Origin: an uncultured Mollicutes bacterium
Lineage (GTDB): Bacteria; Bacillota_I; Bacilli_A; RF39; UBA660
Direction: 5' to 3'
DNA length: 34,319 nucleotides
NCBI GenBank assembly: GCA_946500425.1
Contig: CAMMVQ010000013.1
Coordinates: forward strand, 1 to 34,319
Shown one piece after another: positions 28,113 to 28,820 of the stretch. Numbering within the stretch: position 1 is the first letter of the stretch; every line of letters begins with the position of its first letter. The notes under the pieces are model-generated. The model worked only from the letters and a program-made list of their open reading frames with translations, was not told the DNA's origin and made no database searches. A program made the position numbers and the translations under genes.

Positions 28113-28153
28113 TTTATGCCGAAATAGCTCAACTGGTAGAGCAACTGACTTGT

Positions 28154-28774
28154 GGGATAGAAACTTTAATGTTTTTTTGAACTATCTTGCACCTTGATTA
28201 GGAAACTAATTAAGTGGACGTCGCTAATTCGGGGAACCCTATAGCAAAGGAGATTTATGAATTGCTTAAATTGTTTTAGAGAAGTGCCTGATAATAAAAG
28301 GTATTGTAATAATTTATGTCAAAAAGAATTTGAACATAAACTTTACGTTATCAAATGGAAATTAGGCATTGAAAGCGGTTTAAGAGGTAAGTATCAACTT
28401 TCTAATCACATAAAGAAATACTTGTTTGATAAGTACAATAGTAGATGTGCTTTATGTGGTTGGTCTAAGGAGAATCCTTATACTGAAACAATTCCATTGG
28501 AGATAGAGCACATCGATGGTAACTATCTTAATAATGATGAGGAAAATCTCGTGTTGTTATGTCCAAATTGTCATTCTTTAACTTCTACTTATAAGGGAGC
28601 AAATAAAGGAAAAGGACGAAAGGATAGAAAACAATATAGTTTGTATGGCAATCCCGAGCTAGGTTTAATACCGAGTGTAGAGACTTTATACGATGGACCT
28701 AAGTCACAAAGATATGGTTAAGAGAAAGTCCAGACTACAAACACTTTTGTGGTAGTGAAAGCTATAGTAGTATG
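28154..28774 (+). mobile_element. Group I intron with an HNH endonuclease gene
   Basis: 621 nt, starting GGG after exon U28153 and ending in G28774, as group I introns do. P1 pairs exon and intron 28151-28160 with 28182-28191, with U28153 opposite G28189 (the U-G splice-site pair). A 9-bp hairpin with GAAA tetraloop lies at 28193-28214. P3: CGTCG (28219-28223) / CGATG (28691-28695). P4: TCGGG (28229-28233) / CCCGA (28653-28657). P7: GACTTT (28682-28687) / AAAGTC (28725-28730). P8: GACC (28696-28699) / GGTT (28716-28719). J8/7 is AAGAG. A P9 hairpin follows (CTAC...GTAG). The order P3-P4-P6-P7-P3-P8-P7 is that of a self-splicing group I core. The ORF sits in the P5 side loop. Confidence 0.93.
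28257..28721 (+). CDS. HNH homing endonuclease encoded in the tRNA-Thr intron
   Basis: 154 residues. An N-terminal zinc finger (C3, C6, C17, C21) is followed by the HNH domain: C64-x2-C67, then E-I-E-H85-I-D-G-N, N97 in E-E-N-L-V-L-L, and C102-P-N-C105-H106, with the four cysteines binding a structural zinc. Such enzymes cut the intron-less allele so that repair copies the intron in. AAAGGAG lies 4 bases before the ATG, so it can be translated from the precursor. Residues 133-154 are encoded by the P4-P8 core of the ribozyme and the TAA lies at the P8/J8-7 junction, so the tail sequence is dictated by the RNA fold and the catalytic part is residues 1-130. Confidence 0.92.
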   Translation: MNCLNCFREVPDNKRYCNNLCQKEFEHKLYVIKWKLGIESGLRGKYQLSNHIKKYLFDKYNSRCALCGWSKENPYTETIPLEIEHIDGNYLNNDEENLVLLCPNCHSLTSTYKGANKGKGRKDRKQYSLYGNPELGLIPSVETLYDGPKSQRYG

Positions 28775-28820
28775 AATCAGTAGGTTGCGGGTTCAAGTCC
28801 TGCTTTCGGCACCATAGTAC

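Follow-up and report, generated by a model that had tools for sequence, protein, structure and literature searches.

Core Creep as the Probable Origin of an HNH Endonuclease Tail in a tRNA-Thr(UGU) Group I Intron

Introduction

An open reading frame (ORF) for an HNH endonuclease in an uncultured Mollicutes bacterium continues through sequences that also look like the paired core of a group I ribozyme. This locus raises the question of why the frame extends so far: the tail could serve the protein, it could regulate splicing, or it could be RNA structure that happens to be translated. The window analyzed here is the whole 34,319-nt stretch of contig CAMMVQ010000013.1. Its features are collected in Table 1.

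Table 1. Features of the interrupted tRNA-Thr(UGU) gene, its intron and the intron-encoded ORF
Feature	Coordinates	Strand	Evidence
5' exon of tRNA-Thr(UGU), ending ..ACUUGU	28118..28153	+	Sequence; same exon pair in relatives
Group I intron, 621 nt, ending in omega-G 28774	28154..28774	+	P1-P8 by hand; covariation in 48 introns
P1, UGU|GGGAUAG (28151-28160) with CUAUCUUGCA (28182-28191), U.G at 5' splice site	28151..28191	+	Sequence
P3 5' strand, pairing with 28691-28695	28219..28223	+	Five pair types at one position
P4 5' strand, UCGGG	28229..28233	+	Pairing with 28653-28657, covariation
P5 5' strand, partner of codon 131	28238..28239	+	Covariation with codon 131
Shine-Dalgarno sequence of the ORF, AAAGGAG	28246..28252	+	Sequence
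Zinc-ribbon and HNH homing-type endonuclease ORF, 154 aa	28257..28721	+	PF01844, 24 bits against a cut-off of 21.4
P5 3' strand, codon 131 positions 1-2	28647..28648	+	Gly/Asp/Ala tracks P5 partner in 19/20 introns
P4 3' strand, codons 133-134	28653..28657	+	AAT CCC GAG in 15/15 intron ORFs, third positions unchanged
P6 (28658-28660/28674-28676) and P6a (28662-28664/28670-28672)	28658..28676	+	Compensatory changes; indels not divisible by 3
P7 5' strand, GACUUU, pairing with 28725-28730	28682..28687	+	Looser set: position 5 covaries
P3 3' strand	28691..28695	+	Covariation
P8 (28696-28699/28716-28719, inner 28703-28705/28711-28713)	28696..28719	+	Five pair types at outermost pair
3' exon of tRNA-Thr, with CCA	28775..28814	+	Sequence

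The Interrupted tRNA-Thr Gene

Positions 28118-28814 read as a tRNA-Thr(UGU) gene split by the intron after anticodon base 36. The gene is unannotated; it stands between tRNA-Val and tRNA-Tyr in a cluster of tRNA genes, in a genome of 1.2 Mb. Joining the exons at 28775 restores the 7-base anticodon loop CUUGUAA, and with the U.G pair at the 5' splice site and the terminal omega-G the exons rejoin in the sequence to a functional RNA, the spliced tRNA-Thr(UGU). A tRNA-His reading, based on GTG at the exon end, was rejected, as the exon junction reads UGU, which is Thr. Neither ARAGORN nor Rfam at its curated cut-off detected the intron or its tRNA.

The tRNA-Thr genes found in the genome (~92% complete) are CGU, GGU and a single UGU, which is the interrupted copy. 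Splicing is therefore probably required for this genome to read ACA. What is probably its sole ACA-decoding tRNA-Thr is missed by ARAGORN, and genomes of the same family may be scored without it.

The Ribozyme Core

The strands of P3, P4, P6, P6a, P7 and P8 all pair in the window, and P1 takes in the last exon bases UGU. P1 is retained with different bases in L003 and L011, as read by eye. The covariation set comprised 48 introns, 21 of them with an insert. The P3, P4, P6 and P8 outer pairs are retained in all or nearly all 48, except at the two end positions of P3, with as many as five pair types seen at a single position. Both the mean pairing and the number of double-change pairs in this set exceed those in all 500 shuffles. 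In the 21 ORF-bearing introns the helices are 100% paired save at helix-end positions, with double changes. P6a is paired in 21 of 21 of these; its pairing is lower in the pooled set owing to the deviating layout of one phage clade. The first search pattern fixed both strands of P7, and the covariation of P7 rests on the looser set, in which position 5, at the far end of the helix, and its partner change together (CTTT/AAAG, CTA/TAG, CTG/CAG). The RNA core is real, beyond chance, and it has the P3-P8 architecture with the P3/P7 pseudoknot of a group I intron, backed by covariation.

The Rfam model RF00028 gave a misplaced match of 16.4 of 50 bits, below the curated cut-off. The model probably fails on account of the 413-nt insert in L5, and the low score therefore says more about the model than about the intron. 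The intron appears to be an IC3-like bacterial tRNA intron, with the P2/P9 tetraloops and the guanosine-binding pair in P7 noted by eye only.

Homologous Introns

Roughly 20 homologous introns that carry this HNH ORF in L5, and over 100 ORF-less relatives, were recovered by protein and RNA-pattern searches. The former, from genomes and viral contigs, are almost all in tRNA-Thr; the latter are in tRNA-Thr, tRNA-Tyr and other genes and keep the same core. Of 386 genomes sampled from the family of the window, 20 matched the narrower pattern; the looser pattern matched 35 of 385 genomes of the order set. The closest relatives with titles are Bacilli, Erysipelotrichaceae and Mycoplasmatota metagenome-assembled genomes.

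In L019, L086, L087, L218 and L348, adjoining tRNA-Thr and tRNA-Tyr genes both have introns whose P6-P8 regions are the same or nearly so. The two sites share UGU at the 5' splice site, which suggests that the intron spread between neighboring tRNAs. Introns with the same core in the viral contigs L023, L042 and L054 have flanks that look protein-coding rather than like tRNA. Some phage tRNA introns that belong to this ribozyme family (L032:7444-7893, L033:6073-6564, L038:1020-1466, L047:238-675) carry PD-(D/E)XK (PF11645) ORFs in L6. These ORFs run in the same frame (CVETL..) through P7, P3 and P8, and in L033 beyond the P7 3' strand.

The HNH Protein

The ORF starts with a zinc ribbon, followed by an HNH domain that extends to about residue 128. 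The HNH motif and zinc cysteines score above the Pfam cut-off, and C64, C67, H85, C102, C105 and H106 are invariant across homologues. Divergence at the three codon positions of the ORF body is 0.24/0.20/0.43, indicating purifying selection on the protein.

For most free-standing relatives and those from named phages, the alignment reaches no further than about residue 116-133 (118-133 for named phages). The free-standing homologue in L008 ends in KKYSK, and other free-standing relatives have their C-termini close to this position. This homologue (L008:1713-2099) lies directly 3' of an ORF-less tRNA-Thr intron, an arrangement like collaborative homing or a donor/escape stage. In the AlphaFold model the first 100 residues have pLDDT of about 85-96, and residues 125-154, except 133, are below 50. 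A PDB sequence search with the profile gave no match. The functional protein is thus predicted, from the alignments and the model, to end at about residue 127-128.

It is likely that the HNH protein cuts the intronless tRNA allele and drives homing; the patchy distribution of the intron and the degenerate ORFs are indirect signs of this. In L007, L080 and L083, the HNH ORF is frameshifted or mostly deleted and the core is intact, which fits a homing cycle of gain, decay and loss. L007 is near the window; its frameshift is at codon 107 and it retains the full core.

Codons Shared with the Ribozyme

The initial annotation assigned codons 133-154 to the P4 3' strand, P6, P7 5' strand, P3 3' strand and P8, and placed the stop at the P8/J8-7 junction. 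Both assignments hold. Codon 133 (CCC, 28653-28655) begins the P4 3' strand, and the TAA at 28719-28721 starts on the final base of P8, the pair being G28696.U28719. The overlap begins earlier than codon 133, as codon 131 (28647-28649) holds the P5 3' strand.

The further claim that RNA pairing fixes the tail, which was to be checked in aligned homologous introns, is strongly supported by the covariation, the invariant codons 132-134 and the dependence of codon 131 on P5. Tail pairs are kept by compensatory changes irrespective of the amino acid. The P5 partner of the second base of codon 131 lies upstream of the ORF start. A C at this partner goes with Gly (8/8), a T with Asp (7/7) and a G with Ala (4/4). 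The only exception among the 20 introns is L029, whose ORF ends before codon 131. The amino acid at residue 131 is chosen by RNA pairing, as read from these alignments. Codons 132-134 show divergence of 0/0/0, and they are fixed although they include minority codons in the same ORFs: CCC accounts for 5 of 55 Pro codons and GAG for 20 of 119 Glu codons.

Position of the Stop Codon

The 3' extension varies in length among homologues. Relative to AATCCCGAG (P4 3'), stop positions span -9 to +69. Two or three introns stop before P4: L218 and L019 at -9, the ORF of L019 being broken, and L029 at -4. Most homologues stop in P6 (+15 to +18). Others stop at P6 3' or J6/7 (+24 to +27), and L001 (+57) and the window (+69) stop in P8. 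The far extension thus rests on few sequences, as these two are the only intact ORFs that reach P8. The P6 loop of the window, GGTTTAATACC, carries the frame past P6; relatives such as L002 have GGTTAATACC instead.

Homologues with an ORF ending before P4 3' had been named in the initial annotation as a refuting observation. Such ORFs are found in L029 and L218 with the RNA intact, and the overlap past P4 is therefore no required design. The corresponding frame stays open beyond P7 in 8 of the 28 ORF-less introns of tRNA-Thr/Tyr and in 3 of the 19 HNH-bearing ones. Since it is open in ORF-less introns, reading into P8 requires no special cause. In-frame stops in P6 were counted in 14 of 19 ORF-bearing and 14 of 28 ORF-less introns (Fisher p 0.14), or 9 of 12 and 9 of 22 when unique sequences were used (p 0.08); the sequences are not independent. 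The excess in ORF-bearing introns is suggestive only. If real, it would mean that some selection, and not drift alone, acts on the stop position.

Discussion

It is very probable that this locus is a product of core creep: an HNH gene sits in L5 of a mobile tRNA-Thr(UGU) intron, and its tail would be ribozyme RNA that happens to be translated up to the next stop. The gene would have been inserted in the L5 loop of a mobile, presumably self-splicing group I intron, whose HNH protein would cut the uninterrupted tRNA gene and lead to homing. Past about residue 127-128, the ribosome would read the P5 3' strand, the P4 3' strand, P6, P7, P3 and P8 as far as the first stop codon. The position of this codon would drift by indels and substitutions in the freely evolving P6 loop or just upstream. 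The extension also appears dispensable for the endonuclease by comparison of homologues, as free-standing relatives lack it and it has no predicted fold.

The alternative that the tail is a working part of the protein, such as a DNA- or RNA-binding extension or a maturase, with the RNA match secondary, is hardly credible. The ORF body is under protein selection and the tail of L001 is nearly identical to that of the window; nevertheless, free-standing homologues and many of the intron-borne ones lack the tail, no fold is predicted for it, and its residues change in step with RNA pairing. It is rather unlikely, too, that early stops in P6 are selected to keep ribosomes out of P7, the window being a mildly harmful read-through variant. 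The trend to P6 stops in ORF-bearing introns points this way but is not significant, and P6 loops are AT-rich, with stops common there even when no ORF is present.

Regulation is the remaining alternative: the extended frame would be selected because ribosomes hold the core open, keep an unspliced pool for the endonuclease and set the splicing rate. The geometry agrees with it, since the frame crosses the core and the ORF starts close after the P4 5' strand, 24 nt past it in the window and 7-9 nt past GGGGAA in L029/L011. So does the td precedent, in which translation reduces splicing (PMC2988022). Against it, the far overlap is unconserved, most homologues stopping in P6 and some before P4, an open frame past P7 is not commoner than among ORF-less introns, and the excised intron likewise carries the Shine-Dalgarno sequence and the ORF. 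This reading is considered very unlikely. Even less probable is a feedback loop in which endonuclease translation regulates maturation of the seemingly sole ACA-reading tRNA-Thr; there, ribosomes in the core would block splicing, and spliced tRNA would be needed to translate the ORF, which has an ACA at codon 78.

Under core creep, a ribosome in the tail would still be expected to unfold the core transiently, as in T4 td, and translation and splicing probably compete, as the initial annotation held, judging from the geometry and the td/I-TevI precedent. A ribosome anywhere from the start codon to the P4 3' strand would part the strands of P4, and an initiating ribosome sits close to the 5' strands of P4 and P5, so that the conflict is independent of the far overlap. 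Any such competition would have to be mild, since splicing is probably needed for ACA reading. The proposal that the endonuclease is supplied from unspliced precursor only was not borne out: since the intron contains the entire ORF together with its Shine-Dalgarno sequence, the excised form, too, could serve as mRNA. In predicted ensembles, the Shine-Dalgarno sequence is partly paired, with no strong hairpin, and its sequestration by P5 gave no clear signal.

The type of overlap is already known, and the intron in the window adds another example, from a family of tRNA-Thr/Tyr introns. The term core creep and a list of cases come from Edgell, Chalamcharla and Belfort (2011) (PMC3073962, Table 1); the process has been described for td/I-TevI and Synechococcus L1917 (PMC3073962, PMC1995217). 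As in the window, the I-TevI ORF starts in a peripheral loop and ends in the core, its 3' end forming part of P6a, P6.0 and P7 (PMC3073962, PMC2988022), and ribosome entry is expected to block folding. In T4 td, mutating the hairpin that restrains translation of I-TevI lowers splicing, and unspliced RNA builds up (PMC2988022; primary work by Gibb and Edgell, 2010). The td intron has a GIY-YIG ORF in P6 of an mRNA intron, a 20-nt overlap, and a ribosome-binding-site hairpin with a late promoter, whereas the window has an HNH ORF in L5 of a tRNA intron, an overlap of about 75 nt and no clear hairpin of this kind. In the Synechococcus L1917 rRNA intron the ORF runs through P6, P7, P3 and P8, as shown by Haugen et al. 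(2007) (PMC1995217). It continues through P7, P3 and P8 as in the window, but it encodes a LAGLIDADG protein, starts in P6, lies in an rRNA gene and stops in P9. Cyanobacterial tRNA introns, such as that of Synechocystis tRNA-fMet with a PD-(D/E)XK ORF, are likewise small anticodon-loop group I introns whose endonuclease overlaps paired elements (PMC3073962, Table 1), but the overlap is at P1/P2 and the host tRNA and endonuclease family differ. The free-standing HNH endonucleases of L008 and phage relatives, which occur next to introns or away from them, have a homologous zinc-ribbon/HNH protein that ends at about KKYS(K), without the ribozyme-coded tail. No earlier description of group I introns in bacterial tRNA-Thr, or of a tRNA-Thr/Tyr intron family, was found in the literature searched.

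The family forms an unusually clean natural series, in which one ORF at one insertion point in one ribozyme has stops from before P4 to P8; free-standing copies that lack the tail belong to it, and the ORF-less introns serve as controls. Two predictions of core creep, a variable extension and, by comparison, a dispensable tail, are borne out. At residue 131, where Gly, Asp or Ala occurs, RNA structure selects amino acids codon by codon. The family also supplies matched constructs for the splicing cost of a ribosome in P7/P8, in an apparently essential tRNA. The C-termini of intron-encoded nucleases are not to be taken as protein features.
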